64,000 nucleotides of DNA, taken from contig JAFGVI010000118.1 in NCBI GenBank assembly GCA_016938065.1, positions 40,374 to 104,373 on the forward strand, in the 5' to 3' direction. Position 1 is the stretch's first letter, and each line of letters begins with the position of its first letter. Positions 3,629 through 54,157 of the stretch are shown in pieces. Under the pieces are notes generated by a model. The model did no database searches and was not told where the DNA came from. It worked only from the letters and a program-made list of their open reading frames with translations. A program made the position numbers and the translations under genes. This DNA comes from Deltaproteobacteria bacterium. GTDB lineage: Bacteria; Desulfobacterota; Anaeroferrophillalia; Anaeroferrophillales; Tharpellaceae.

Positions 3629-5169
3629 TCGATTGTCCCCGGCGGTTTGGAGGAGATGTCGTAAACTACGCGATTGACTCCTCTGACTTCATTGATGATG
3701 CGATTCGCGATCCGCCCTAAAAGATCATAGGGCATTCGGAACCAGTCTGCCGTCATGCCATCGACACTGTTGACCGCCCGTAAGGCGATAACCTTTTCAT
3801 AGGTTCGTTCATCCCCCATGACACCAACCGTTTTTACCGGAATCAGAACCGCAAAAGCCTGCCAGATTTCATGATAGAGTCCGGCCTTACGGATCTCTTC
3901 AATAAAAATGGTGTCCGCCTGACGCAGGATATCAAGCCGACCCTGAGTAATTTCGCCAATTACGCGGATAGCCAGCCCCGGCCCGGGAAAAGGATGCCGA
4001 TCCACCACCTCTGAAGGAAGACCAAGTTCCCGGCCAACCTCGCGCACTTCATCTTTAAAAAGCTCCCGTAAAGGTTCAACCAGTTCAAGCTTCATATGTT
4101 CGGGCAAGCCCCCGACATTATGATGACTTTTGATCACCGCCGAAGGCCCCTTAAAAGAGACACTCTCAATCACATCCGGATAGAGGGTCCCCTGGGCGAG
4201 AAAATCAACCCCTTCGAGCAACCCGGCCTGTTCTTCAAAAACCCGGATAAACTCATTACCGATAATCTTACGCTTTTTTTCCGGGTCCGTGACCCCGGCC
4301 AGGAGATCGAGAAAGGTTTGACTGGCATCGACATAGCGCAGATTGATCTGAAAATGACGCCCAAACATCGCCTGCACCTGCTCCGCTTCATCCTGACGCA
4401 AGACCCCGTTATTGACAAAGATGCAGGTCAGCTGGTCGCCTAAAGCCCGGTGCAGCAACAGAGCTGCGACCGAAGAGTCGACCCCGCCGCTCAAACCTAA
4501 AATAACTTTGCCGGAATCGACCTGAGCCCGGATTGCAGCAATCGTGGTCTCGATAAAAGAGTGCATATTCCAGAGACCGTGGCAGTCACAGATGGCAAAG
4601 AGAAAATTTTTCAGAATCTGCCGCCCCGGTTTGGTGTGGACCACCTCGGGATGAAACTGCAGACCCCAGGCCTTTCTCTGAGAATCGGCAAAAGCGGCAA
4701 TCGCGGCATTCTCCGTCGCCCCGATCGCGGTAAAACCGTCCGGCAGAGAGAGTACCTTATCGCCATGACTCATCCAGACCTGCTCCGGAAAATGCAGGCC
4801 CTCCCACAAGGGATCGGCCTGAAGAGAGTTCAGACTGGCCATGCCGAATTCGCGCTGTACGGAGTGGCCCACCACTCCCCCTAACTGTTCGGCAATCTCC
4901 TGCATGCCATAACAGATGCCGAGAATCGGCACCTTGAGCGCGAAAACCCCTTTATCGACATGAGGCGCGCAGCTGCCGTAGGTACTGGAGGGCCCGCCGG
5001 AGAAAATAATCCCGCGCGGTGAAAACTCCTTAATCCGTTCTAAAGAGAGATTATAGGGATGAATCTCACAATAAACCTTTTGTTCCCGCACCCGCCGGGC
5101 AATCAGTTGCGTATATTGAGAACCAAAATCAAGAATGAGGATCTTCTCCTCATGAATATCAGGCTGCAT
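3619..5169 (-). CDS. guaA: GMP synthase (glutamine-hydrolysing)
   Basis: 516 residues. Converts XMP to GMP with ATP and glutamine. The N-terminal class I amidotransferase shows the nucleophile Cys in GICYGMQE and the His in QFHPEV. The ATP-pyrophosphatase domain has the P-loop [13 protein letters not shown]. The C-terminal dimerisation domain ends normally in KPPGTIEWE. It follows guaB by 90 bases, so both last steps of GMP synthesis sit in one transcription unit. The downstream regulator gene starts inside its last codons. Confidence 0.98.
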
Positions 5170-5230
5170 TATTTCTCCAGAATCAAAAAAACTGAACTTT
5201 TCCCCAAAACTTCAATAATTACGCAATAAT

Positions 5231-5251
5231 AATTCGTAATTCGTAATTCGC
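5231..5251. repeat. Short tandem repeat (3 x 7 bases) between guaB and guaA
   Basis: Three consecutive copies of AATTCGT/AATTCGC lie in the 90-base guaB-guaA spacer. No hairpin or terminator is formed. It may be slippage in an AT-rich spacer; no function can be assigned. Confidence 0.7.
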
Positions 5252-5259
5252 ACTTACTC

Positions 5260-7655
<2,396 letters not shown>

Positions 7656-7741: not shown

Positions 7742-9424
7742 TTATTTTGCTCCGGCTACGGTTTCGCAGACATTAAAGCAGTGATCACCGATTTTTTCAA
7801 AATTAGTAAGCATATCAATAAAAACCAGACCCGGCACCACGGAACAGCGATCCTCGCTCAAACGTTCAATATGCCGGTTACGATAGCGATCCTCCAGAGA
7901 GTTGATACTGCTTTCCAGGGCTTTGGCCCGTACCATGAACCTCTCCTGTTTAGCGTTTTCCATACCGCTTATCATCAACTCGATAAATTCCCGCGACTTG
8001 GCCTTGATATTGGCAACCTCAGTCAGCGCTTCCTCACTGAATTCAATTTTCTGATCGTGCATCCGTTCAACCAGACGAATCAGGTTTTCGCAATGGTCTC
8101 CGAGACGCTCCAGGTTATTGACAATATACATCGTGGCATTGACCTCACGGGAGATTTCCGGCGTCGTCGAGAGCTGGGTTACATTAACAAGAAAATCCGT
8201 AATCTCCTTTTGCAGCATATCAACCGTATTTTCTTTGCGATAGACCTTCTCGACCATCTTCTGAGAAAAGTTTTCAAAACACTCCATGGTCTGATCAAAC
8301 ATCCGCAGACAGAGACCGGCCATGCGCATAGTTTCCTGGCGCGCCTGTGCCAGAGCCAGAGGCGGAGTGTCAAGCACCCGATTGTCGATAAAACGCAGAT
8401 GATAAGAACTCTCCTCTTCCTCGCCGGCAGGCACCATCCAGATGCAGATTTTAGCCAGCACTCCGATCAGAGGAAGAAAAAGCAGACAGTTGAACACATT
8501 GAAAAAGGTATGAGCATTGGCCAGATGGCGGGCGATAAAGGGTTTATCGCCAATAGCCATGGCATACTGAGCAGCCTGCTGAGCGGTGGTCAGTACCATA
8601 TCCGGAGCCCCGGGAGTAAATTTATCCACCAGCTGCATGAACAGGGGAAAGAGCAGTATGACATAAACAACCCCTAAGACATTAATCATCGTATGGGCCC
8701 AGGCCGCACGCTTGGCCGAAACATTAGTCCCGATACTGGCCAGCAAAGCGGTTATGGTCGTGCCGATATTCTCCCCGAGAATCAAGCCCAGGCCACCTTC
8801 AAAGGTCAGCGCGCCGCTGGCTGCCAGAACCATGGTAATACCGACAGTGGCACTGGAACTCTGCAGAACAATAGTCAGCAGAGCTCCAGCCAGAACAGCC
8901 ATGAGATGATTATGGCTGAATGAAACAAAAGCTTCTTGAAAAAAAGGCTGGGTTTTGAGCACCGAAAGCCCGTCCTTCAAGATATCGAGGCCATAAAAAA
9001 GCATCCCGAAACCAAGCAGTATTTCTCCGAAATACTGCCAGCGGCGATTGCGGGAGAAAAATTTAAGAGCCACACCGATGCCGATCGCCGGCAGTGCATA
9101 ATGCGTTACCTTGAAGGCAATCATCTGGCCGGTTATCGTGGTTCCGATATTGGCCCCCAGAATAACCCCGATCGCCTGCATCAGATTCATCAGACCGGCA
9201 TTGACAAAGCCCACCACCATTACGGTTGTGGCACTGCTGCTCTGAACAATGGCCGTTACCGTGGTGCCGACCAGAAACGCGGAAATCCGGTTAGTCGTCA
9301 AGGTTTCAAGTACTTGCCGCAGGCGATTGCCGGCCGCCTTCTGCAAGCCTTCCGACATGACTTTCATGCCGTAGAGAAAAAGCCCGAGACCACCAAGAAA
9401 AGAAAACACCATTGCTTGAATCAT
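7742..9424 (-). CDS. Na+/phosphate cotransporter (NptA family) with PhoU-like tail
   Basis: 560 residues. Two homologous membrane halves each carry the family's QSSSAT motif (QSSSATTVMVVG and QSSSATVGITMV). About eight membrane helices fill residues 1-320. The C-terminal 200 residues are helical and PhoU-like, with phrases such as NNLERLGDHCENL and NFEKIGDHCFNV that echo the repeated E/DxxxD metal-binding motifs of PhoU. It is expected to import phosphate with sodium across the inner membrane. It lies 86 bases upstream of fbp on the same strand and may be cotranscribed with it. Confidence 0.93.
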   Translation of the reverse strand: MIQAMVFSFLGGLGLFLYGMKVMSEGLQKAAGNRLRQVLETLTTNRISAFLVGTTVTAIVQSSSATTVMVVGFVNAGLMNLMQAIGVILGANIGTTITGQMIAFKVTHYALPAIGIGVALKFFSRNRRWQYFGEILLGFGMLFYGLDILKDGLSVLKTQPFFQEAFVSFSHNHLMAVLAGALLTIVLQSSSATVGITMVLAASGALTFEGGLGLILGENIGTTITALLASIGTNVSAKRAAWAHTMINVLGVVYVILLFPLFMQLVDKFTPGAPDMVLTTAQQAAQYAMAIGDKPFIARHLANAHTFFNVFNCLLFLPLIGVLAKICIWMVPAGEEEESSYHLRFIDNRVLDTPPLALAQARQETMRMAGLCLRMFDQTMECFENFSQKMVEKVYRKENTVDMLQKEITDFLVNVTQLSTTPEISREVNATMYIVNNLERLGDHCENLIRLVERMHDQKIEFSEEALTEVANIKAKSREFIELMISGMENAKQERFMVRAKALESSINSLEDRYRNRHIERLSEDRCSVVPGLVFIDMLTNFEKIGDHCFNVCETVAGAK

Positions 9425-16975: not shown

Positions 16976-18940
16976 TTACAGTTCGCGACGGTCAGCCATA
17001 TCGAAAAGTTTACGCTCCTGCTTGACGTTGATGCCTAAAGCTTCGCGTTTTTTATCGATATGAGCGATCATCTTGGCAGCATGCTCATAAGGATCAATGG
17101 CAAAATCCCACATGCCGCCGACTTCCGCTTCCAGACCTTTAAAAAGATGCTCTTTGAATTTGGTACCATCGGTAACCGGGAAAGCGGCGCCGAAGACGGT
17201 ATAGACGCCGGATGAAACAAAGTACTGACCGATGGAGATAGCCTTTTCACTCATCCACTCAGGAGCGGAACCGGCGACCGGAAGATCGGAAAGTCTTTCA
17301 CCCAGACCGCCTTCTTTAAGAACGGCGGAAGCGGCGATCAGAATACGGCTGTTATCAACACAGGAACCCAAGCTCAATACCGGCGGAATACCGACTGTTT
17401 CGCAGATTTCAGCCAGACCGGGGCCGGCAAATTTGGCCGCTTCAGGGGTTAACAGTCCAGCCTTACCCAGAGCAATTGTGGAGCAACCGGTCTGCAGTAC
17501 GAGAACGTCATTCTTGATCAGCTCTTTTACAACTTCAGTGTGAACCCAGTCATGTTTGACGCGGGGGTTAGTACAACCGACAACCCCGGCAACGCCGCGG
17601 ATGCGACCGCTGATGATGGCATCATTCAACGGACGGTAAGAGGGGCGATAGGTTCCACCGAGATGATAAAGAATGCTTTCATGACCGAAACCATGAATAC
17701 CGATGTGCTTGTTCTGCGGAATTTCAACCGGTTTCGTCCGGTTTTTAAAACGGGCAATCGCCAGTTCGACAACCTTATCAACACACTCACGGGGATTGGT
17801 CTCATCGAGCTGAATATGGGTCGCACCTTCGATGTGGGCCCGATAGTTGGTCGTAATGAAAGGGGTGCCGTAACAGGCGGCAACCGGAGAAAGACCTTGT
17901 TTGATACACTGAACGTCAACCGCCATGGCATCAACCGCCCCGGTCACAAGCAGGGCTTCCGTCGACATGAAGTTACCGGCATGAGGAATACCATGACGCA
18001 TCAGAACTTCTGCCCCGGAACAGCACATCCCTGCCAGAACAATACCCTCGGCCCCGGCGGCTTTGGCTTTTTCAATCATTTTGGGGTCATTGACGGAATC
18101 GATCATGGCCTCGAACATAATGGGCTCATGACCGTTAATGACAACGTTAACCTTTTTCTCTTCCAGACAACCCATATCAACATAGGCATCAATCGGTTTC
18201 GGAGTGCCGAACAGAATATCGGAAATCTCGGTAGCAACCATCGAACCACCCCAGCCATCGGAGAGAGCGGTGCGCTGAAACTGACGGGAAATGTTGACAT
18301 AATGCTGGTCAACCCCGATATGGGTACGATGCATCATCTCCATCAGTTCACGCATGGCGCCGCGAGGAACGATACCCAGTTCACGCCAGCGCTCCAGGGT
18401 TTTTTCCGGAACCCGTTTCATAAACGGAATCTCGCCCTCAACCTGAGTATAGGTCTTCTCCAGCTCTTCGGCCAGCTCAACCCCTAACTCCAGGATCTCA
18501 CGATCTTTAATTACGCCATCAACCTCGACCGTTGTCGGAATATCGAGATAGCCGCAAACCTCTTTCAGCTTGGTGACATCTTTAATACGGAAACCATCGA
18601 CCTTGCCATGAACGACCTCTTTGAAACAGTCAAGCATACCCATACCATGGTCGGTATGGGCAGCCGCACCAGCAACGACCATGCGGGCAAAGTTACGAGC
18701 AGAGATTGTATCAATCGTGGCCCCACAGACGCCGACTTTAGCATAAGGATCTTTGGGGCTCATCCGACAGGGGCCCATGGAACAGTTTTTACAACAGGCG
18801 GATACGGCGCCGATGGGACAGGCGGCCATATCATTGGCCCGATGAAAGGAGATCTGAACGCCATCTTTCTGAGCTTTTTCCAGCATCTGAATGGTGCTGG
18901 GACAGATTGTCGCTTCCTGAATATTTAACTCTTTTGCCAT
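16976..18940 (-). CDS. cooS: Anaerobic carbon-monoxide dehydrogenase catalytic subunit (Ni-Fe CODH)
   Basis: 654 residues, normal for CooS. Interconverts CO and CO2. The N-terminal cluster ligands appear as CPIGAVSACCKNCSMGPC: the C-x7-C pair of the inter-subunit D-cluster followed by the C-x2-C-x4-C start of the B-cluster. Downstream 'HGFGHESILYHLGGTYRP' and several Cys (e.g. VGCTNPR, QTGCSTIALGKAG, SLGSCVDNSR) fit the Ni-Fe C-cluster region. GGAGG precedes the start. No cooF, cooC, acetyl-CoA synthase or hydrogenase gene is nearby, so whether it serves CO oxidation, CO2 fixation or redox balance cannot be told. Confidence 0.97.
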   Translation of the reverse strand: MAKELNIQEATICPSTIQMLEKAQKDGVQISFHRANDMAACPIGAVSACCKNCSMGPCRMSPKDPYAKVGVCGATIDTISARNFARMVVAGAAAHTDHGMGMLDCFKEVVHGKVDGFRIKDVTKLKEVCGYLDIPTTVEVDGVIKDREILELGVELAEELEKTYTQVEGEIPFMKRVPEKTLERWRELGIVPRGAMRELMEMMHRTHIGVDQHYVNISRQFQRTALSDGWGGSMVATEISDILFGTPKPIDAYVDMGCLEEKKVNVVINGHEPIMFEAMIDSVNDPKMIEKAKAAGAEGIVLAGMCCSGAEVLMRHGIPHAGNFMSTEALLVTGAVDAMAVDVQCIKQGLSPVAACYGTPFITTNYRAHIEGATHIQLDETNPRECVDKVVELAIARFKNRTKPVEIPQNKHIGIHGFGHESILYHLGGTYRPSYRPLNDAIISGRIRGVAGVVGCTNPRVKHDWVHTEVVKELIKNDVLVLQTGCSTIALGKAGLLTPEAAKFAGPGLAEICETVGIPPVLSLGSCVDNSRILIAASAVLKEGGLGERLSDLPVAGSAPEWMSEKAISIGQYFVSSGVYTVFGAAFPVTDGTKFKEHLFKGLEAEVGGMWDFAIDPYEHAAKMIAHIDKKREALGINVKQERKLFDMADRREL

Positions 18941-43785: not shown

Positions 43786-44208
43786 TCAGCTGAACTCCCG
43801 GGCTACCAGCTTAAAAATAGTATTGTCGGCACTCTTCATTAAAACCTCTCGCTCATCTGCAGGCAAAAAAGAGTGAGAAAAGGCCTGCTTGATAATTGCC
43901 AGTGCATCCCAAAGCGTAATCCCGCCAACCAGGCGGGAGGCAAGAAGATACTCACCGGTCAATGTGGTTTTACTGATCCCCGGATTATCGGTGCAGATGG
44001 TTAACGGCAGACCCATCTGCCAAAGCTTCTGCAAGGGATAAGGTGGATAATCAGCAAGCGCCGCCATGGCCGCCGCTCTCTTTAAACGTTCATTCGCCCC
44101 TTTTTCATTATCCCACCGATCGCTGATCACAACGAAACCGAATCGGGGCTGAAGCAAAGGCAAATTTCCCATTAAACTTTCCGTTCCGATGCAGAAACAC
44201 CGTATCAA
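43786..44208 (-). pseudogene. Adenosine-deaminase-like C-terminal fragment
   Basis: From about 44080 downward the frame reads ADYPPYPLQKLWQMG, LPLTICTDNPGISKTTLTGE and YLLASRLVGGITLW, matching the last 100 residues of adenosine/AMP deaminases (HPxxxLxxxGxxVTxxTDDP...TxLxxEY). The TDN keeps the first Asp of the metal-binding pair. The upstream two-thirds of the enzyme, including the metal-binding HxH, are missing, so it cannot be active. The frame begins overlapping the Cas1-like fragment in another frame. Interpreted as a decayed gene. Confidence 0.72.
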
Positions 44209-44389
44209 TCTGATGCCGCATCAAAAGATTGATCGCGGCACTGGTAATCTCAATACGCCCGATAATCACCAGCTGCTCGGTCTTAAAAGGAAAGATCGTC
44301 TTTAAAAGATCATCACCTTTACGCAACTGCAGAACGTCACCGTTTTTTACCAGGCGCCCATAATCTGAAACAACATAAATGATCGACAC
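44108..44389 (-). pseudogene. Cas1-like N-terminal fragment
   Basis: GTG 44389 opens a 93-residue frame: IIYVVSDYGRLVKNGDVLQL, then FPFKTEQLVIIGRIEITSAA and LLMRHQIDTVFLHRNGKF. This is the beta-sandwich N-domain of CRISPR integrase Cas1 (first ~75 residues of ~330). The catalytic E/H/D helical domain is absent and the tail is unrelated. No cas2, other cas genes or CRISPR repeats are near. A remnant; function lost. Confidence 0.68.
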
Positions 44390-45288: not shown

Positions 45289-45305
45289 CTGGAACGCCTT
45301 ATGCT
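45289..45305 (+). promoter_or_regulatory. Candidate sigma-54 promoter of the cytochrome/NrfD operon
   Basis: CTGGAACGCCTTATGCT has the invariant GG (45291-45292) and GC (45303-45304) with exactly 10 bases between, and 14 of 17 positions match YTGGCACGRNNNTTGCW. Transcription would start near 45316, about 60 bases before the first gene. An NtrC-type activator is encoded in the same cluster at 52745-54157. Confidence 0.6.
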
Positions 45306-45376: not shown

Positions 45377-45625
45377 ATGAAAACCATGTTACGTATCGTC
45401 ACAGTGTTTGCCGCCCTGCAGGCAACTTCGGTCTTTGCCGCTAGCGGCGCCGGGGGTGGAGGGATCGGTCTCATCGGATGGATTTTCATCGGCTTTATGG
45501 CGGTTATTGTAGCCTTCCAGTTCGTTCCCGCCGTAATTATGTTCGGCTCGATGATGGCGGCTGTTTTCGGCAAGGCTAAAAACCGGGAAAGTGCGGCGCA
45601 CAGCGCCAAGGCTGACAACTCCTGA
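45377..45625 (+). CDS. Small exported single-helix membrane protein (paralogue 1)
   Basis: 82 residues from ATG 45377, preceded by GGAGGTGA. Signal peptide to about residue 22 (VFAALQATSVFAA), Gly-rich linker GAGGGGIG, one membrane helix WIFIGFMAVIVAFQFVPAVI, and a basic tail. It shares the pattern IVxxQxVPAxxxxxxxxxA with the protein at 46112-46357, so the two are probably duplicates. First gene after the sigma-54 promoter. Possibly a small subunit of the electron-transfer complex. Confidence 0.75.
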   Translation: MKTMLRIVTVFAALQATSVFAASGAGGGGIGLIGWIFIGFMAVIVAFQFVPAVIMFGSMMAAVFGKAKNRESAAHSAKADNS

Positions 45626-45677: not shown

Positions 45678-46091
45678 ATGCAGCTTCTTCTTATAGCTGA
45701 CAGGGATGATGAAACCAGCCGGCGGATCGTCGGGTTTTTCAGCGGCAGCGAATATCAGGTCATTGAGGCCGATTCAGTGGATGTTGTGCTTCGCAATGTT
45801 CTGAAAAAAGAAGCTAATGTCGTGCTGCTGGGAAGTGAATTCGACGGTTTGTCGGCCATGGAAATCATCCCCCTTTTAAAAAAATGTAATCAGAACCTAA
45901 CTATTATCCTTATATCAAACGAAGAGTCCCTTCCTCTTATTCGCAGATTCCGTAAAGAGGGAATATTTTATCACGCCTTGAAACCGGTAAACGGCGACGA
46001 CCGGGAGGAACTCAGACAGGTAGTGCAATGCGCTTTTCATAATTCAACAGACAGGAGACTGTCACGAAAAGATCCTGCCAGGGACATCTGA
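45678..46091 (+). CDS. Degenerate response-regulator receiver protein
   Basis: 137 residues, one receiver-like domain. The fold is readable (LLLIADRDDETSRRIVGFF, ANVVLLGSEFDG, TIILISNEES, HALKPVNG), with the distal Lys present, but the phospho-acceptor Asp position is G52 (LLGSEF instead of LLDxxL). It cannot be phosphorylated in the normal way and is probably a protein-interaction module. It sits between the two small paralogous membrane proteins. Confidence 0.8.
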   Translation: MQLLLIADRDDETSRRIVGFFSGSEYQVIEADSVDVVLRNVLKKEANVVLLGSEFDGLSAMEIIPLLKKCNQNLTIILISNEESLPLIRRFRKEGIFYHALKPVNGDDREELRQVVQCAFHNSTDRRLSRKDPARDI

Positions 46092-46111: not shown

Positions 46112-46357
46112 ATGAAAACGGTTACATCGACACTCTTTCTGGTTCTGGCTGTTTGCAGTCCGGCTTTTGCCGAAGGTACAACGATGGTTTACAAAAGCGG
46201 GATTCTCGTTTCCGTTTTCGTCGGCATCTGTGCGCTGATCGTTGTCGCCCAGCTGGTTCCCGCCCTGATGCTGCTCATGGGATTCATCAAGGCATCAGTC
46301 GCCGCGGCCTGCAAAAAGGAACTCCCGGCAACCGAATCATCGCGCAAAGGCAATTAA
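46112..46357 (+). CDS. Small exported single-helix membrane protein (paralogue 2)
   Basis: 81 residues after AAAGGAGG. Signal peptide TLFLVLAVCSPAFAEG, then one membrane helix ILVSVFVGICALIVVAQLVP and a cytoplasmic-type basic tail with CKKE. Related in pattern to the protein at 45377-45625 but more diverged at the ends. No known family. Confidence 0.75.
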   Translation: MKTVTSTLFLVLAVCSPAFAEGTTMVYKSGILVSVFVGICALIVVAQLVPALMLLMGFIKASVAAACKKELPATESSRKGN

Positions 46358-46406: not shown

Positions 46407-46595
46407 ATGAGCCACCAGCTTATTCAATTTTTTAACGATATCGGCGGAGTCGTGCAGATCGGCACCCTTGTCGAATATTATGATTATATCAAAGCCGTCG
46501 AATATCTGATCTGCGTCGGATTTCTGGTCGCGTTCCCGATTTTTTATAAGAACGTTATTATGTACAACAATGATGCCGAAAACAAAGATGCATAA
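46407..46595 (+). CDS. Small membrane protein
   Basis: 62 residues, start ATG 46407 after AAGGAGAATC. A soluble N-terminal part (IQFFNDIGGVVQIGTLVEYY) and one membrane helix AVEYLICVGFLVAFPIFYKN, no signal peptide. Lies between the duplicated membrane proteins and the cytochrome gene. Probably an accessory subunit; no family recognised. Confidence 0.72.
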   Translation: MSHQLIQFFNDIGGVVQIGTLVEYYDYIKAVEYLICVGFLVAFPIFYKNVIMYNNDAENKDA

Positions 46596-46626: not shown

Positions 46627-47151
46627 ATGAAAAGTAGAAAAATCTGGGTCTGGAGAGGAATTGTGGCGCTGTTTTTTATCGCTGCTCCGGCTTTCGGCAC
46701 GGTTGACGAACCGCCGGCATCCGTGTCGATAGGCTCCCTCTCCCACCTTTACAGCGAGGTTGTTTTTGATCACGACTTGCATCTGAGCGTCACCGACGAC
46801 TGCTCAGTCTGCCACCATCACCGCTTCGGCAAAGGGGTTAAAGAGGAGCGCTGCGCCAGATGCCACTCTGAGAGCCAGGGAACCTTTTCCGCAAGATGCA
46901 GTGATTGTCATGTCGAAAAACCATTCTCCGTCGAGCATATCATGATGATGGAGGCTGATCCCAAACGCTACCATATCGATATGACCGGACTCAAGGGAGC
47001 CTATCATCTGAAGTGCTATAACTGCCATGCCGCTATGGGAGCGCCTTCCGAATGCGGAGACTGTCACGCTAGAAGCGATGCAGGTGATCGTTTCTACCAC
47101 TCCGGAATATATGCGCCGGCCGGTGGCAGCCCGACAGGAAAACATGAATAG
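46627..47151 (+). CDS. Pentahaem periplasmic cytochrome c
   Basis: 174 residues from ATG 46627 (GAGGAGG upstream). Signal peptide to about residue 24 (GIVALFFIAAPAFG). Five CXXCH motifs at C59 (CSVCH), C76 (CARCH), C91 (CSDCH), C130 (CYNCH) and C143 (CGDCH), with extra His as distal ligands (FDHDLHL, CHHH), as in class III/c7 cytochromes. It probably exchanges electrons with the ferredoxin/NrfD pair encoded next, like CbcS or HmcA-type subunits. Confidence 0.92.
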   Translation: MKSRKIWVWRGIVALFFIAAPAFGTVDEPPASVSIGSLSHLYSEVVFDHDLHLSVTDDCSVCHHHRFGKGVKEERCARCHSESQGTFSARCSDCHVEKPFSVEHIMMMEADPKRYHIDMTGLKGAYHLKCYNCHAAMGAPSECGDCHARSDAGDRFYHSGIYAPAGGSPTGKHE

Positions 47152-47199: not shown

Positions 47200-48141
47200 A
47201 TGAGTGGTATAAGCCGGAGAAAATTTCTCAAATCGACCGTCATCGCCGGCGGCAGTGCCGCTGCGGCGATGACTTCCGCCAAAAGCGCATTTGCTATGAA
47301 GGAGTTCCAGGGTTATCCGGACAGTATGGGCGTCCTGGTTGATCTTACCCGCTGCATCGGCTGTCGCACCTGTGAAGCCGCATGCAACAAGGAACATAAT
47401 CTGCCGGAACCGGCACTGCCCTTCGACAATCTTTCAGTTTTCGACGAGACCTTTCACGAAGGTAAACAGAAACGACGCACCACCGACAAGGCCTACACGG
47501 TCGTCAACCGCTATGCTGAACAAGAGCCGGGCGGTCCGGTCTACCGGAAAATCCAGTGCAACCACTGCAGCGAACCGGCCTGTCTGACCTCCTGTTTTGT
47601 TAACGCCTACAAAAAGACCAAGGAGGGAGCCGTGGTCTACAACCCGAATGTCTGTGTCGGCTGCAGAATGTGCATGGTGGCCTGTCCCTTCGGCATTCCG
47701 GCCTACTCCTATGACAGCGCCCTGCATCCCGAAATCATAAAATGTAACTTCTGTTACGACACTCGGTTAAAAAACGGCAAACCACCCGCCTGTGTCGAGG
47801 CGTGTCCGCAGGAAGCTCTGACTTTCGGCCATCGCAAAACCCTGGTCAAAACCGCCCATGAACGCATCCGCTCTAATCCCGGCAAGTACGTTGATCATGT
47901 CTACGGCGAAACCGAAGTGGGCGGCACCTCCTGGATGTACCTGTCCAGCGTCCCCTTCGAACAGGTTGGTTTCAACACCACCCTGCAGCACCATCCGATT
48001 CTGGACAATACCAAGAGTTTTCTGGGCATCGTACCCATGGTCTTAGGCATCTGGCCGGCGATGTTTCTGGGTTTCCACCTTCTCGCAAAAGGAGGCAAAA
48101 CCGAGAATAAAGAATCCAATGCCGGCGAGAGCTGCAAGTAA
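47200..48141 (+). CDS. Tat-exported 4Fe-4S ferredoxin-type subunit (HybA/CbcT-like)
   Basis: 313 residues. Twin-arginine signal SRRKFLKSTVIAGGSAAA. Four Cys-rich groups for [4Fe-4S] clusters: CIGCRTCEAAC, CNHCSEPACLTSC, CVGCRMCMVACPFG and CNFCYDTR...CVEACP. A C-terminal membrane helix (FLGIVPMVLGIWPAMFLGFH) anchors it, as in HybA. It bridges the periplasmic cytochrome and the NrfD-type membrane protein. Confidence 0.94.
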   Translation: MSGISRRKFLKSTVIAGGSAAAAMTSAKSAFAMKEFQGYPDSMGVLVDLTRCIGCRTCEAACNKEHNLPEPALPFDNLSVFDETFHEGKQKRRTTDKAYTVVNRYAEQEPGGPVYRKIQCNHCSEPACLTSCFVNAYKKTKEGAVVYNPNVCVGCRMCMVACPFGIPAYSYDSALHPEIIKCNFCYDTRLKNGKPPACVEACPQEALTFGHRKTLVKTAHERIRSNPGKYVDHVYGETEVGGTSWMYLSSVPFEQVGFNTTLQHHPILDNTKSFLGIVPMVLGIWPAMFLGFHLLAKGGKTENKESNAGESCK

Positions 48142-48221: not shown

Positions 48222-49574
48222 ATGAAACATCTTATAAAAAAAGGCTTCAGTCCGGTCAACTCGTTGAATAATCCGGACAATGGTCACAAATGGAGTTTAT
48301 GGCAGAAACTGCGGCTTGGACTTACTCCGGCCGAGTATTTTCAACAGCTTCTGCGCAACCCTTTCAACTGGGTTTTATGTGTTATATTTGCCATCGGCCT
48401 GCCGATCATTGTCTACCGCTATGTTATGGGTCTGGGCAGTGTCATGCATGCCAGCTATGACTATCCCTGGGGCCTTTTCTTGGGGTTCGGGCTTTTCTGC
48501 ATGGTGCCGCTTTCCGCCTCCGGCTTTCTGCTCGGCACGACCGTGGAGCTGTTCGGTCATAAAAAATTCAAACCCATCCTCAACCTGGCCCTGCTCAACG
48601 GCCTGCTCGGCTATTTCTTTGCGGTGGTTTACCTGCTCGTTGATCTGGGCTGCCCCTGGCGACTTTACTACCCCATGTTTGTTTCCTGGGGTACGGCAGC
48701 TGTTCTTTTTTTAGTCGGCTGGCATGTCGCAACCTACCTGTCGGTCCAGATCATGGAGGTTTCCGAAGCCTTTTTTGCCTGGATAGGCTGGCCGGCCGCC
48801 AAAAAATACATTCATGGGGCAACCATCGGCCTGACCGTTGCCGGGATCATTCTCTCCACACTCCACCAGGGAGCTCTGGGAACCCTTCTCACCTATGCTC
48901 CCGGGAAAGTACACCCGCTCTGGTATTCATCGGAGTTTATGTGGATCTTCTATCTCTGTTCTTCGATTTTCGCCGGACTCTGTATGGTTATCGCGGTCAG
49001 CACCATTGTCGAAAAAACCATGGCCTGGCGGTGCAGCCGTGAATTCCTGGATAATCTCGGAGCCATCACCATCGGCCTGGCCAAAGGCGCCAGCATGGCC
49101 CTGGTAACCTACTTTGTGATCAAGCTTATCGGCCTGACCCATGACAACCAGTGGTCCTATCTGGCAACCGGCTGGGGGAAATGGTATATGCTGGAAATAT
49201 CACTCGGCGTCATCCTGCCGATTATCCTTTTCTCCATCGCCATTCGGAAAAACAGCGTCGGCCTGGTACGTTTCACCGCCTTCATCACGATTGCCGGACT
49301 GATGATGAACCGGCTCAATACAGCTCTGATCACCTTCAACTGGAACCTCTATCAGGAGATCCCTCATCCTCTGGAAACAATCATCAGCGTAACCATCTTT
49401 GCCCTGTTTATAGTGGTCTATCGCTTTATCCTCTATCGGCTGCCAATACTCTATACTTGGCAATCCGTGCCGGCATTGGAAATGGCAACGGTCCCCGTAC
49501 TCGAGCCGGCCGAAACCGTTCCGGTCCAACCGGAGCCCCACTTTGCCACAGTGATGCCATCAATCGAAAACTAA
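48222..49574 (+). CDS. NrfD/HybB-type quinone-interacting membrane subunit
   Basis: 450 residues with about ten membrane helices, for example NPFNWVLCVIFAIGLPIIVY, GLFLGFGLFCMVPLSASGFL and LEISLGVILPIILFSIAIR. It has the HybB-like features SYDYPWGLFLGF and STLHQGALGTL. In the family it exchanges electrons with menaquinone. A hydrophilic tail of about 35 residues rich in Pro/Val/Glu is added at the C-terminus. Follows the ferredoxin subunit. Confidence 0.92.
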   Translation: MKHLIKKGFSPVNSLNNPDNGHKWSLWQKLRLGLTPAEYFQQLLRNPFNWVLCVIFAIGLPIIVYRYVMGLGSVMHASYDYPWGLFLGFGLFCMVPLSASGFLLGTTVELFGHKKFKPILNLALLNGLLGYFFAVVYLLVDLGCPWRLYYPMFVSWGTAAVLFLVGWHVATYLSVQIMEVSEAFFAWIGWPAAKKYIHGATIGLTVAGIILSTLHQGALGTLLTYAPGKVHPLWYSSEFMWIFYLCSSIFAGLCMVIAVSTIVEKTMAWRCSREFLDNLGAITIGLAKGASMALVTYFVIKLIGLTHDNQWSYLATGWGKWYMLEISLGVILPIILFSIAIRKNSVGLVRFTAFITIAGLMMNRLNTALITFNWNLYQEIPHPLETIISVTIFALFIVVYRFILYRLPILYTWQSVPALEMATVPVLEPAETVPVQPEPHFATVMPSIEN

Positions 49575-49632: not shown

Positions 49633-50496
49633 ATGTTCAACCGCTTTGCTTCCAAAGCAATCATCCCGGTAGCGCTCTCTCTGACTGGTTTTGTCGTTAT
49701 CTGCAGCCTCATACTCTACTCCTCGATTAAAGCTGATTTTTTACGGGATGCGGTACGGCAGGAGACCAGTCTTGCCGATACCGTCGTCAGTTCAACCCGC
49801 TACACCATGATGACCGGGGACCGGAAAAACCTCTACCATATTATTGACAGCATCGGCGTGCAGAAAGGCATTGAGCATCTGCGGATTTTCAATAAAGATG
49901 GGGTTATCATGTTCTCCTCGGATCCCGGCGAATTAAACCAGGTTGTCGACAAAACGACAGCCGGATGTATCGAGTGCCACAGCGGTCCCGTACCTACGGT
50001 ACGTCTGGGCTCCATGCAGCTGGCGCGGCACTTTGTCAATGCCAGAGACCACAATGTTCTGGCCATCACCGCTCCGATCTACAACGATGCGGACTGCTCT
50101 GCCGGCGACTGTCATTTTCACCCCTCTCACCAGAAGGTGCTGGGAACCCTGGATATCGGCCTTTCAACCGCGTCTTTAGACAGCAGCCTGCTGGCTCTGC
50201 GCTGGAAAATGATAGTTTTCTGCATCATGGTTCTTATCTTGTCCGTAGGCGGAGTCAGCGCGCTTCTCAGACGCAACCTGCTGACACCGATCAACCAGCT
50301 ACTGGATTATGTAAAAAAAGTTTCCGAAGGAACATTAGAGAATGATTTTCCCAGGGGAGTCAGCGAGGTTGAGACCCTGGGACAGAGCTACTTTGACATG
50401 GCCCGAGAAAAGCACTTAGCTGAAACGACATTGATAAAAGCCAAAAAAACTGATATTACAACGCCGGAAAAGGATCATAAACAGGGAAAAAAGTGA
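49633..50496 (+). CDS. Kinase-less diheme-c membrane sensor with HAMP domain
   Basis: 287 residues after AAAGGAGAA. Helix 1 at 9-31, a periplasmic domain (33-190) with CIECH (112-116) and the longer CSAGDCH (155-161, a CX4CH heme motif), helix 2 (192-212) and a HAMP segment LLTPINQLLDYVKKVSEGTL. It ends after about 60 cytoplasmic residues, with no kinase or methyl-accepting domain. The periplasmic part matches the sensor half of the histidine kinase at 51123-52706. Confidence 0.87.
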   Translation: MFNRFASKAIIPVALSLTGFVVICSLILYSSIKADFLRDAVRQETSLADTVVSSTRYTMMTGDRKNLYHIIDSIGVQKGIEHLRIFNKDGVIMFSSDPGELNQVVDKTTAGCIECHSGPVPTVRLGSMQLARHFVNARDHNVLAITAPIYNDADCSAGDCHFHPSHQKVLGTLDIGLSTASLDSSLLALRWKMIVFCIMVLILSVGGVSALLRRNLLTPINQLLDYVKKVSEGTLENDFPRGVSEVETLGQSYFDMAREKHLAETTLIKAKKTDITTPEKDHKQGKK

Positions 50497-50566
50497 ACAC
50501 TCCGATTTAGTTTTCAGTCAGACGGAACTTCAGATGTAAAGATGGCGAACCAGAGGGGAGGGGTAA

Positions 50567-51091
50567 GTGTTTTTACGGCGGAAGCAGAAACAAAGTGATC
50601 TCTTCACTCCGGTCGGGACTGGGCTTGGGCAAAATCAGCGACGCCAGGAGATTCAGGATCGCATCCAGCTGCTGAAGAAACAAATACGCAACAGCAAATG
50701 GTGGATGGCCCTGTTTTTCCTGGTCAGTCTGGCCGCCGCGGTGGATTTCCGCTTTCTCCCCGCCATACCTGAAACCGCAAAAAAATTTCTCGGAAATGCG
50801 CCGCCGACAACCCTCATCAGCATTGCCCTGATCGTCTATGCTTTTTCCGCCCTTATCCTCATCATGGGGCATATGAACACCGGCTCGGTTCGCTTCAAGG
50901 GCTGGTCGCACATTGTCTACCTCTCGGCCTTTTACCTGTTCTATTACTACAGCGGTGTTCTGCGCGATAATTTCTGGCCGGTGTTTATCGCCGGGCTGAC
51001 GATTCTCGGCCTGGAAAACTATCGTGTCTGGTCCCTGTGCAGTGAAGCCATCAGAGAGGAGATGAAGATCCTAAACTCTCTCGGAAAATGA
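50567..51091 (+). CDS. Four-helix membrane protein of unknown function
   Basis: 174 residues from GTG 50567 after GAGGGGAGG. A basic N-terminus (FLRRKQKQSD, IQLLKKQIRNSK) precedes four membrane helices: WWMALFFLVSLAAAVDF, TLISIALIVYAFSALILIMG, IVYLSAFYLFYYYSGVL and FWPVFIAGLTILGL. No cofactor motif. Last gene of the plus-strand operon, converging with the kinase gene. May be a membrane partner of the oxidoreductase. Confidence 0.78.
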   Translation: MFLRRKQKQSDLFTPVGTGLGQNQRRQEIQDRIQLLKKQIRNSKWWMALFFLVSLAAAVDFRFLPAIPETAKKFLGNAPPTTLISIALIVYAFSALILIMGHMNTGSVRFKGWSHIVYLSAFYLFYYYSGVLRDNFWPVFIAGLTILGLENYRVWSLCSEAIREEMKILNSLGK

Positions 51092-51122
51092 CCGGTTTTT
51101 ATGCGCGGAGGGAAGGCAAACG

Positions 51123-52706
51123 TTACTCAAGAAAAAGGTGATGAGAACGGCTGTCTCCAACCGGCAGAAAAATGGTAAAAACCGTACCCTGATCCGGTTT
51201 GCTGCTGACCTCGATTTCACCGCCATGGGCCTGGATAATACCATAGGAAACCGAAAGACCAAGACCGGTGCCCTTGTGTCCTTTGGTGCTGAAAAAGGGA
51301 TCGAAAAGCTTCTCCAGATTCTCTTCCGCAATACCGCAACCGGTATCCTCAATACGAACATAGATCTGCTCTTTTGCGGACAAAACCCCCGTCTGTATGA
51401 GCAGAGTCCCTCCCTCGGGCATCGCCTGGCCCGCGTTAATCATCATATTAACCAGAACCTGCTCAATCTGAGACGCGTCCATCAAGGTATCGGGAAGTTC
51501 AGGATCATACTCCCTGATAATCTCAATATCTTTAAAATCGGCATTATGTTCAATCAGGGCGATCGTGCGGTCGATGGCTCCGCTGACCGGCTGTATGGCC
51601 TTCTGCGAATCCGAGACCCTGGCGAAATCAAGCAGTTCCTTAACAATTTTAGAACAGCGCCGCGATTCGTGAATAACCGTCTGGCAATCTTCAACCAAAC
51701 CCTCATCAAGCCGGGGGTCACTGGAAATAAGCGAGGTATGAATCATAATCCCGGTCAGGGGGTTATTGAGTTCGTGCGCAATCCCCGCGACCAGTTCCCC
51801 CAGGGAAGCGAGCTTTTCCGAACGGATCAGCACCGACTGCATCTCCTTGATCTCGCGTGTGCGCTCCTCCACCCGGCTCTCCAGCGTCGCCGCCCATTTG
51901 TCCTGTTCCTCCCGGTTTCTTTTGAGTTTACCGGTCATTTCGTTAAAAGCTTCGGCAAGCTCCCCCAATTCATCCCCGGGTACTGATTTAATAAAGCACC
52001 AGTTGCCCTTACCCACGGCCCGAGTATACTCCAGCAGGGTGTGCACCGGCTGAATAATCAGCCTTCGGGTGAGCAGAGTCAAACAGAGAGAAGTGGAGAG
52101 AATCAGGAAAAAGATCTGAATCACAGTATTGTTGCGATAGTTACTGATCATCATGAGCATGGGATCAGCGGAAATTGTAATGTCAAGCAGACCCAGAAAC
52201 GAGGTCTCCCGGGAGTGCGCATGGCAGGCCCCGGTCCAGCATGTCTTTTCATTATAGATGGGCCGAATCAGGCCGAGCACTTTTTTACCGTTGCTGTCGA
52301 GAAACATGCGGCTGCGGGCCAGAGGCGAAGGTTTTTCCAGGGACATCGCCTCATTGTGACAGACCATACAGGCCGGAGCTGAATTTTTATCAAGGGTGCT
52401 ACCGATCTCAGAACCGTGAGTAGAGAAAACCATGGTTCCTTCCCGGTTAAGAATTCTGATCCGCTCAATACCCTTCTGCTTACCCATCTCCCCGATGGCA
52501 ACCTCAATCTGATCCCGGTTATTTTCCAGCATCTGATGAAATACAGCCCTGAAAATGGTTTCACTGAGATGATCGAGGTCTGATACCGCACTCTGTAGGA
52601 AGGCGTGTTTGAGGGTTGAGAAATTGAAATAACCAAAGAGAACCGAGGTAAACAACAGCACAATACCCGTAATCAGCGAGATCTGCACAATCAGTTTTAA
52701 ACGCAC
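51123..52706 (-). CDS. Sensor histidine kinase with diheme-c periplasmic domain
   Basis: 527 residues. Helix 1 (7-28), periplasmic sensor with CMVCH (113-117) and CWTGACH (156-162, CX4CH), helix 2 (about 190-212), HAMP (213-265), coiled coil, HisKA with the phosphorylated His in GELVAGIAHELNNPL and HATPase with NMMINAGQAM (N box), DTGCGIAEE (G1) and GTGLGLSVS (G2). The domain should read periplasmic redox state through heme. It follows the activator gene by 38 bases. Confidence 0.93.
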   Translation of the reverse strand: MRLKLIVQISLITGIVLLFTSVLFGYFNFSTLKHAFLQSAVSDLDHLSETIFRAVFHQMLENNRDQIEVAIGEMGKQKGIERIRILNREGTMVFSTHGSEIGSTLDKNSAPACMVCHNEAMSLEKPSPLARSRMFLDSNGKKVLGLIRPIYNEKTCWTGACHAHSRETSFLGLLDITISADPMLMMISNYRNNTVIQIFFLILSTSLCLTLLTRRLIIQPVHTLLEYTRAVGKGNWCFIKSVPGDELGELAEAFNEMTGKLKRNREEQDKWAATLESRVEERTREIKEMQSVLIRSEKLASLGELVAGIAHELNNPLTGIMIHTSLISSDPRLDEGLVEDCQTVIHESRRCSKIVKELLDFARVSDSQKAIQPVSGAIDRTIALIEHNADFKDIEIIREYDPELPDTLMDASQIEQVLVNMMINAGQAMPEGGTLLIQTGVLSAKEQIYVRIEDTGCGIAEENLEKLFDPFFSTKGHKGTGLGLSVSYGIIQAHGGEIEVSSKPDQGTVFTIFLPVGDSRSHHLFLE

Positions 52707-52744: not shown

Positions 52745-54157
52745 TTACAAATCGGCATGATCTCGCACCGATATCCCGTGTTTTTTCAACATTGCCTGAA
52801 AATTGGGCCGCAACATTCCAACCCCCCGGGCCGCCCGGGCGATAATCCAGTTATTGCGCTCCAGGGCCTGAATTAGAAAAGCACGTTCAACCGGCTCCAC
52901 CGCTTTTTCTCTGATCTCTCTTTTAACCTCCTTGAGGCTCTCGGCACTCTGCGGCACAGACTCTGCAATAACCTCCAAAGCTGCGTCGGCAGAGGACTGA
53001 ATCTCCAGATCCTCAGGCTGAATAAGTTTACTGCGCGTCAGCACAACCGCTCTTTCAATAATATTTTCCAGTTCCCTGACATTCCCAGTAAAAGGATGCT
53101 GCGCCAGAATCGACATCGCTGTCGGGGAGATACCATGGATCTCCTTGCCGATCTCCTCGGAGAACTTTTTCAGAAAATGGCCGACAAAAAGGGGGAGATC
53201 CCCCTCTCGCTCAATCAACGGAGGCAGGTTGACCGGAATGATGTTGAGCCTGAAAAAAAGATCCTGGCGGAAAAGCCCTTCGCTGACCAGATCGTTCAGA
53301 TCCCGGTTGGTAGCGGTAATCAGCCGGATGTCAATGGGAACAGGTTTTGTCCCCCCGATGGGGGTTATTTTAAACTCCTGAAGAACCCGTAAAAGTTTAC
53401 CCTGAGTGGCGAGGCTGATATTGGAAATCTCATCCAGAAAAAGGGTGCCCCCGTCCGCAACCTTGAAAAGACCCATTTTGGTCTGCACAGCCCCGGTAAA
53501 GGAGCCCTTGACATGCCCAAAAAGCTCGCTTTCAAGAAGATTTTCGACCAGAGAGGTGCAATCGACAGCGACAAAGGGCTTATTGCTGCGCATACTGTTT
53601 TTATGAATAGCTTTGGCCACCAGCTCTTTGCCGGTGCCGCTCTGACCATTGATGAGTACCGTACTGTCAGTGGGAGCAACCTGTCTGATGCGTGCATAGA
53701 CCCTCTGCATCGCTTCGCTCTCTCCGACAAAAATCTCAAAACCGTTCCGGCTGGGACCTACTGCCGGATGGGCCATCTGCATCTGCACCGTGCGCTGTTC
53801 CAGCGCCTTTTCAACCATTTCTATAATCTGCTCGGGGGTAAAGGGTTTCGAGATATAGTCAAATGCCCCATTTTTCATGGCATCAACCGCAGTGTTAACC
53901 GTAGAATACCCAGTGACAATGATGACCGGCACCCCCGGCTGCAGGATTTTGATGGCTTTTAAAACCTCAATTCCATCCATGCCCGGCATTTTAAGATCCG
54001 TAATGACGATATTGAACGGCGTTTTCTGCAGCATTTCAATAGCCCCAAAACCGCTTTCAGCAACCTCCGCCTGGTATCCCCGACCTTCCATAACCCGACA
54101 GAGCCCTCGCCTGATCACGGCTTCGTCATCAACTATCAGAACCTTTACACCAGTCAT
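52745..54157 (-). CDS. NtrC-family sigma-54 response regulator
   Basis: 470 residues: receiver with intact D10-D11, D54 (VITDLKMPG), T82 and K104; AAA+ domain with NGQSGTGKE Walker A, loop GSFTGA (Ser in place of Ala), LFLDEIS Walker B; and a Fis-type DNA-binding end (WIIARAARGVGMLRPNFQAML). It is the partner of the kinase just downstream and is the likely activator of the sigma-54 promoter at 45289. Its own promoter is a strong sigma-70 site. Confidence 0.95.
   Translation of the reverse strand: MTGVKVLIVDDEAVIRRGLCRVMEGRGYQAEVAESGFGAIEMLQKTPFNIVITDLKMPGMDGIEVLKAIKILQPGVPVIIVTGYSTVNTAVDAMKNGAFDYISKPFTPEQIIEMVEKALEQRTVQMQMAHPAVGPSRNGFEIFVGESEAMQRVYARIRQVAPTDSTVLINGQSGTGKELVAKAIHKNSMRSNKPFVAVDCTSLVENLLESELFGHVKGSFTGAVQTKMGLFKVADGGTLFLDEISNISLATQGKLLRVLQEFKITPIGGTKPVPIDIRLITATNRDLNDLVSEGLFRQDLFFRLNIIPVNLPPLIEREGDLPLFVGHFLKKFSEEIGKEIHGISPTAMSILAQHPFTGNVRELENIIERAVVLTRSKLIQPEDLEIQSSADAALEVIAESVPQSAESLKEVKREIREKAVEPVERAFLIQALERNNWIIARAARGVGMLRPNFQAMLKKHGISVRDHADL

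Follow-up and report, generated by a model that had tools for sequence, protein, structure and literature searches.

Two neighboring genes at this locus encode proteins with the same predicted two-heme periplasmic domain, of which only one continues into a histidine kinase. What is the second protein for: does it serve the kinase, the respiratory enzyme encoded beside it, or neither? The window (the whole 64,000-nucleotide stretch of DNA that was analyzed) belongs to a Candidatus Tharpella-group genome. The Tharpellota are Desulfobacterota that have been recovered as MAGs only, and no electron acceptor is known for them. As the redox potential falls, Geobacter-like bacteria reportedly switch from one inner-membrane quinol oxidase to another.

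Two putative diheme proteins

The pair of genes was located as follows:

49633 to 50496, + strand: kinase-less diheme Cache-HAMP protein of the CbcD type, 287 aa
51123 to 52706, − strand: diheme Cache-HAMP-HisKA-HATPase histidine kinase, counterpart of GSU0599, 527 aa

As had been predicted, each periplasmic domain carries a CXXCH and a CX4CH motif, at C112/C155 and C113/C156, respectively. The motifs are CIECH (C112) and CSAGDCH (C155) in the kinase-less protein, where the putative hemes would be held by C112-C115-H116 and C155-C160-H161, and CMVCH (C113) and CWTGACH (C156) in the kinase. A spacing of 43–44 residues had been given; it is 43 in both proteins and 44 in neither. Both share the layout TM - Cache domain - TM - HAMP, in which the periplasmic domain, flanked by two TM helices, holds two CX2-4CH c-type heme motifs, as in the diheme GSU0591/GSU0599 type. 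The statement that one protein runs on into HisKA-HATPase and the other ends after HAMP agreed with Pfam: HAMP, HisKA and HATPase_c were all above their cut-offs in the kinase, and a sub-threshold HAMP was the sole domain match in the kinase-less protein. PF21563 scored below its cut-off of 27 bits for both (19.6 and 19.9 bits), and PF11845 was not reported by the Pfam scan of the two proteins.

A search of other genomes for the two-motif domain, which the original prediction had suggested, found relatives in several phyla. In an alignment of 55 proteins from several phyla, M59, G90, C112, C115, H116, C155, C160, H161, L170, G171 and D174 were invariant, and a chance origin of the motif pair was excluded because of this conservation. 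The idea that CX4CH is a rare or doubtful motif was rejected; CX2-5CH is the rule at the second site across phyla. For cytochrome c assembly, two PF01578 proteins were found in the genome of the window, and CcmF_C and ResB gave no match there (the assembly is 89% complete).

Operon and promoter

The placement of the pair in an operon held for the kinase-less gene, which sits in a respiratory operon. It did not hold for the kinase gene, which lies outside it in convergent orientation and is followed by its own sigma-54 regulator gene. The other features are:

45290 to 45305, + strand: −24/−12 (sigma-54 type) promoter TGGAACGCCTTATGCT heading the operon; no variation in the TGG, AC and TATGC columns across all 8 genomes aligned
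45377 to 45625, + strand: small membrane protein, 82 aa, first operon gene; Shine-Dalgarno sequence, kept in 8 genomes
45678 to 46091, + strand: stand-alone receiver domain with the phospho-acceptor Asp replaced by Gly (pseudo-receiver); Pfam Response_reg 3.6e-8
46112 to 46357, + strand: small membrane protein; reading frame conserved in 8 genomes
46407 to 46595, + strand: small membrane protein; reading frame conserved in 8 genomes
46627 to 47151, + strand: periplasmic multiheme cytochrome c, 5 CXXCH; Cytochrome_C7 2.1e-5, TmcA-like 1.6e-10
47200 to 48141, + strand: HmcB-like Tat-exported 4Fe-4S protein; NCBIfam HmcB 2.9e-121
48222 to 49574, + strand: HmcC-like integral membrane quinone-interacting subunit; NCBIfam HmcC 3.8e-103
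50567 to 51091, + strand: small membrane protein at the CbcE position, last operon gene; downstream neighbor of the kinase-less gene in almost every full-length cassette
52745 to 54157, − strand: NtrC-family sigma-54 response regulator; Sigma54_activat 3.2e-68, Response_reg 2.4e-32

The cytochrome reading frame was listed from 46570, and the ribosome site and conservation favor the start at 46627. Judged by gene spacing and conservation, the nine genes from the 45290 promoter to the CbcE-like gene form one putative transcript. The phospho-Asp and the GSFTGA loop of the NtrC-family regulator are intact. Among the homologues of the receiver-only protein read from Tharpellota and Geobacterales cassettes, nearly all have the phospho-Asp exchanged for Gly or Ser and keep the Lys. 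By these residues, the operon holds versions of both two-component halves that lack the catalytic positions, and the working kinase and regulator are encoded outside it.

A loose promoter scan of the window alone was uninformative (333 matches); the alignment across genomes was decisive. The strict −24/−12 pattern was found 349–458 bp upstream of the receiver gene at 16 of 32 loci, Hmc-type and CbcBA-type alike; the other strand and the reversed pattern gave 0 each, and mononucleotide shuffles averaged 0.35. It is missing at the other half of the loci, in some by single changes, and the TGG and TGC promoter cores are present in the alignment at three loci (L031, L032 and L036). We infer that the adjacent NtrC-type regulator acts on this sigma-54 promoter. 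Further upstream, at 43786–44389 (− strand), fragments of an adenosine deaminase and of Cas1 occur in overlapping frames and are probably decayed; no CRISPR-like array was found in the window between 41000 and 46000.

Counterparts in known systems

Of the signal-transducer proteins in Geobacter sulfurreducens, just GSU0591 and GSU0599 are described as carrying two heme motifs (CX2-4CH); one is a kinase, the other a “cytochrome c family protein.” This listing was traced to Londer et al. 2006 through the literature that cites it. GSU0591 is CbcD, a HAMP-containing protein with 2 heme sites that belongs to the cbcEDCBA operon and is annotated as the cytochrome c subunit of the oxidoreductase Cbc5. 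The window's kinase-less protein and kinase were matched to GSU0591 and GSU0599 by synteny and published description; the G. sulfurreducens genome was not found in the sets searched, either by genus or with a PilA query.

The order CbcA, CbcB, 9-12-heme CbcC, kinase-less protein, CbcE-like is common in Geobacterales. The window resembles the Cbc5 operon in having a HAMP-bearing diheme protein followed by a CbcE-like gene in an oxidoreductase operon, but it has an Hmc-type module where Geobacter has CbcBA, and no close CbcA was found elsewhere in its own genome. The Fe-S and membrane subunits match HmcB and HmcC of the Hmc complex (HmcA-HmcB-HmcC) of sulfate reducers best, although below the equivalog cut-offs (HmcB 404.3 vs. 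420 bits; HmcC 345.7 vs. 550 bits), and the window cytochrome has 5 CXXCH motifs where that of the Hmc complex has 16 hemes. In other genomes, the same cassette flanks genes resembling CbcA/CbcB of G. sulfurreducens CbcBA, and the sigma-54 regulator of those cassettes is 59–67% identical. The regulator of CbcBA in G. sulfurreducens is BccR (GSU0598), for which Joshi et al. 2021 reportedly described a role in cbcBA induction.

The diheme pair is not new in kind, its G. sulfurreducens counterparts being known. What appears to be new here, with uncertain priority, is the common duplication, the near-obligate pairing, the oxidoreductase swaps, the conserved promoter, the pattern of Met and heme conservation, the degenerate HAMP of the kinase-less protein and the pseudo-receiver. 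In the literature found, no paper describes GSU0591 and GSU0599 as paralogous, as obligate partners or as the sensors of an oxidoreductase operon. Diheme forms are not mentioned in a 2026 preprint on heme-Cache proteins.

The putative heme domain

The proposal of heme-based redox sensing gained indirect support from a profile match, an invariant Met and the Cache fold. The profile, built from 23 relatives, matched the heme-c sensors GSU0935 (3b42, E 1.9e-5) and GSU0582 (3b47, 1.8e-4) in two stretches each, and the lone CXXCH of these sensors aligned with the second motif (CX4CH) of the window proteins. M59 aligned to chain position 26 and the motif His to 110; via the numbering of His144, M59 corresponds to Met60 of GSU0935, a reported axial heme ligand that binds upon reduction. 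Met occupies this site in 187 of 187 unique domains, and M59 is a candidate distal ligand of heme 2. The window domain thus shares with these sCache_heme domains the Cache fold, the place of the second motif and the Met60 equivalent, whereas GSU0935 and GSU0582 have one heme, at a CXXCH, and are fused to MCP; the window domain has an extra heme motif upstream and a CX4CH (CX2-5CH in relatives). An AF2 model from 55 sequences had the Cache fold (pLDDT 88); low confidence was confined to the heme 1 loop, which a model without heme would be expected to show. Structural searches with it found WalK (Z 14) and CitA (Z 11.5); 3b42 and 3b47 were absent among the matches listed, although the sequence profile finds both.

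Five cassette kinases (L072, L076, L078, L080 and L102) and two outlying kinases (L047 and L048) have lost heme 1. The few alignment gaps at heme 2 were read as spacing variants (CX2CH, CX5CH) rather than losses, and heme 2 appears universal. Because its motif is kept throughout while heme 1 is sometimes lost, heme 2 would be the core of the domain and heme 1 an addition.

One kinase-less protein (L152, in genome G193), a true CbcD, is also without heme 1; the kinase of the same genome (L153) keeps both motifs. In two lineages, that of the five cassette kinases and that of this protein, heme 1 was lost from one partner and kept in the other. Another candidate for an extra kinase-less copy (L151, in G208) was rejected, as it reads as a kinase with a frameshift.

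The signal itself has a rival reading. GSU0935 and GSU0582 bind NO and CO, NO dissociates slowly from a monoheme relative with HAMP, as it does from known NO sensors, and heme-Cache members fused to signaling modules show NO-sensor behavior in vitro. The signal may accordingly be NO, which counts against redox sensing. The diheme domain would then be a nitric oxide sensor, and the operon would serve in denitrification or in the response to nitrosative stress. Positions 16976–18940 encode a protein of the Prismane/CO dehydrogenase family, perhaps a hybrid-cluster protein, but this is 30 kb away; none of the cassette genes examined was recognized as an NO reductase, the putative target genes are respiratory quinone oxidoreductases, and CbcBA is reportedly expressed during low-potential Fe(III) respiration. 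We regard an NO-sensing role as improbable.

Origin and retention of the kinase-less protein

In a 113-row tree, the 52 kinase-less proteins form one clade (support 100) that is sister (87) to the 35 cassette kinases (99), and both clades fall within a broader group of diheme kinases that spans several phyla. Since the kinase-less copies make up a single clade sister to the cassette kinases, the simplest history would be one duplication, after which one copy lost its kinase and stayed in the operon. A lone diheme kinase is often found next to hmc-like genes and an NtrC regulator in genomes outside the Tharpellota/Desulfuromonadales group.

Sixty genomes of one Geobacterales family were scored: 44 have both types, 1 the kinase-less type only, 3 the kinase only and 12 neither. 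The kinase thus accompanies the kinase-less protein in 44 of 45 genomes of this family and, phylum-wide, in 19 of 19, with about 60 genomes having the kinase type alone; these genomes are related, and the counts are not independent events. Co-occurrence is one-way: the kinase-less protein is near-obligately found with the kinase, and the kinase is often alone.

Identity in the HAMP domain is 0.32 among kinase-less proteins vs. 0.50 among kinases, and the D-E-x-G-x-L signature of HAMP (DExG), near 100% in cassette kinases, is gone from the kinase-less proteins. Their heme domain and TM parts, by contrast, are more conserved than those of the kinases. A decaying, functionless kinase copy would account for the missing output domain, for an internal stop in one MAG and for the loss of heme 1 in one copy, but the conservation pattern already contradicts it: the origin is single and old, identity is 68–82% across Tharpellota-type genomes (78% to Ca. 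Tharpella aukensis, the nearest named relative of the locus), and the heme and TM parts are under more constraint than in the kinase. Decay is scarcely credible. Because DExG was lost from HAMP while the heme and TM parts were better conserved, the function of the kinase-less protein probably lies in its periplasmic and membrane part. A partner working through periplasm and membrane, as heterodimer or electron donor, seems to fit these data best; an electron-transfer subunit would fit too.

In the latter case, the protein would be a membrane-anchored diheme cytochrome that reuses a sensor domain to pass electrons from the quinol oxidase to periplasmic cytochromes. Its gene adjoins oxidoreductase genes in a structural operon, its HAMP has degenerated and its heme and TM parts are the better conserved, CbcD is annotated as the cytochrome c subunit and is listed among detected electron-transport proteins, and the data of a preprint point to redox functions of heme-Cache proteins that stand alone. 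The operon placement and the Cbc5 annotation in Geobacter also count against the regulatory reading, as do short HAMP-less relatives that exist away from any cassette.

The neighboring modules argue otherwise. The redox module beside the kinase-less gene is Hmc-type in 30 cases and CbcBA-type in 30, with at least 8 switches on the tree of the kinase-less protein, and the kinase, regulator, receiver and CbcE-like gene stay while the module switches. At one locus (L037), the Tharpella regulatory genes are kept, and a multiheme cytochrome c and a cytochrome b561 stand in place of the hmc genes. Because these partners persist across at least 8 oxidoreductase swaps, the kinase-less gene appears to track the regulators rather than any one enzyme, which favors a regulatory role. 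An enzyme subunit would not be expected to stay when its oxidoreductase is exchanged for an unrelated one, nor to be almost never without the kinase. In DIET cultures of G. metallireducens, moreover, cbcD was up 2-fold vs. 29-fold for cbcA and 42-fold for cbcB, odd for a subunit in fixed ratio. We consider the subunit role a real possibility that falls short of probable. The functional tie between the two diheme proteins that was originally predicted is indirectly supported by the single duplication, the near-obligate co-occurrence and the retention through oxidoreductase change.

Proposed mechanism

Our preferred reading, about which belief and doubt are evenly divided, is a redox-sensing two-component cassette with the two diheme proteins as paralogous parts, the kinase-less one pairing with the kinase or feeding electrons to it. 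Identity, paralogy, co-retention, promoter and conservation were taken from sequence; heme binding, ligand switch, promoter control, pairing and feedback are the inferred portions.

The kinase and the adjacent NtrC-type regulator would form the working two-component system, and the regulator, acting at the 45290 promoter, would turn on the operon, whose product would be an inner-membrane quinone:cytochrome c oxidoreductase, of the Hmc type in the window and of the CbcBA type in other genomes. Sensing may take place at heme 2 (CX4CH, His161), with the distal ligand Met59 bound or released according to redox state, as in GSU0935, and the proposed role of heme 1 is electron transfer to and from the pool of cytochromes. 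As a product of the target operon, the CbcD-type protein would have kept its heme and membrane parts and lost its output; most likely it pairs with the kinase or passes electrons to it. Since a sensor without a kinase and a receiver without its phospho-Asp are both encoded in the target operon, the kinase may receive feedback from how much of the operon's product is present and from the redox state of that product. That the kinase-less sensor and the Asp-less receiver together constitute built-in feedback, tying quinol oxidase expression to the redox state of the periplasmic electron pool, is a tentative and rather unlikely extension.

GSU0599, GSU0591 and the adjoining regulator are concrete candidates for potential sensing, and G. 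sulfurreducens is open to genetic manipulation. CbcD, although classified as part of an enzyme, may be a component of the sensor. The diheme pair is kept beside respiratory genes in many metal-reducing bacteria and is a good candidate for gauging the voltage of respiration. In Tharpellota, the cassette points to redox-regulated quinone:cytochrome electron transfer.

Other occurrences of the module

At one locus (L154, from 4897–5742 onward), the same diheme Cache-HAMP module is followed by what was read by eye as a GGDEF-type domain; the module thus reads as one used with other outputs. Short solitary relatives of 223–233 aa (L095–L100, at about 7980–8680), with two TM helices and both heme motifs and no HAMP, occur outside cassettes. 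Two of them (L095 and L099) lie near a large multi-TM protein that resembles a sodium-solute symporter fused to a phosphatase.
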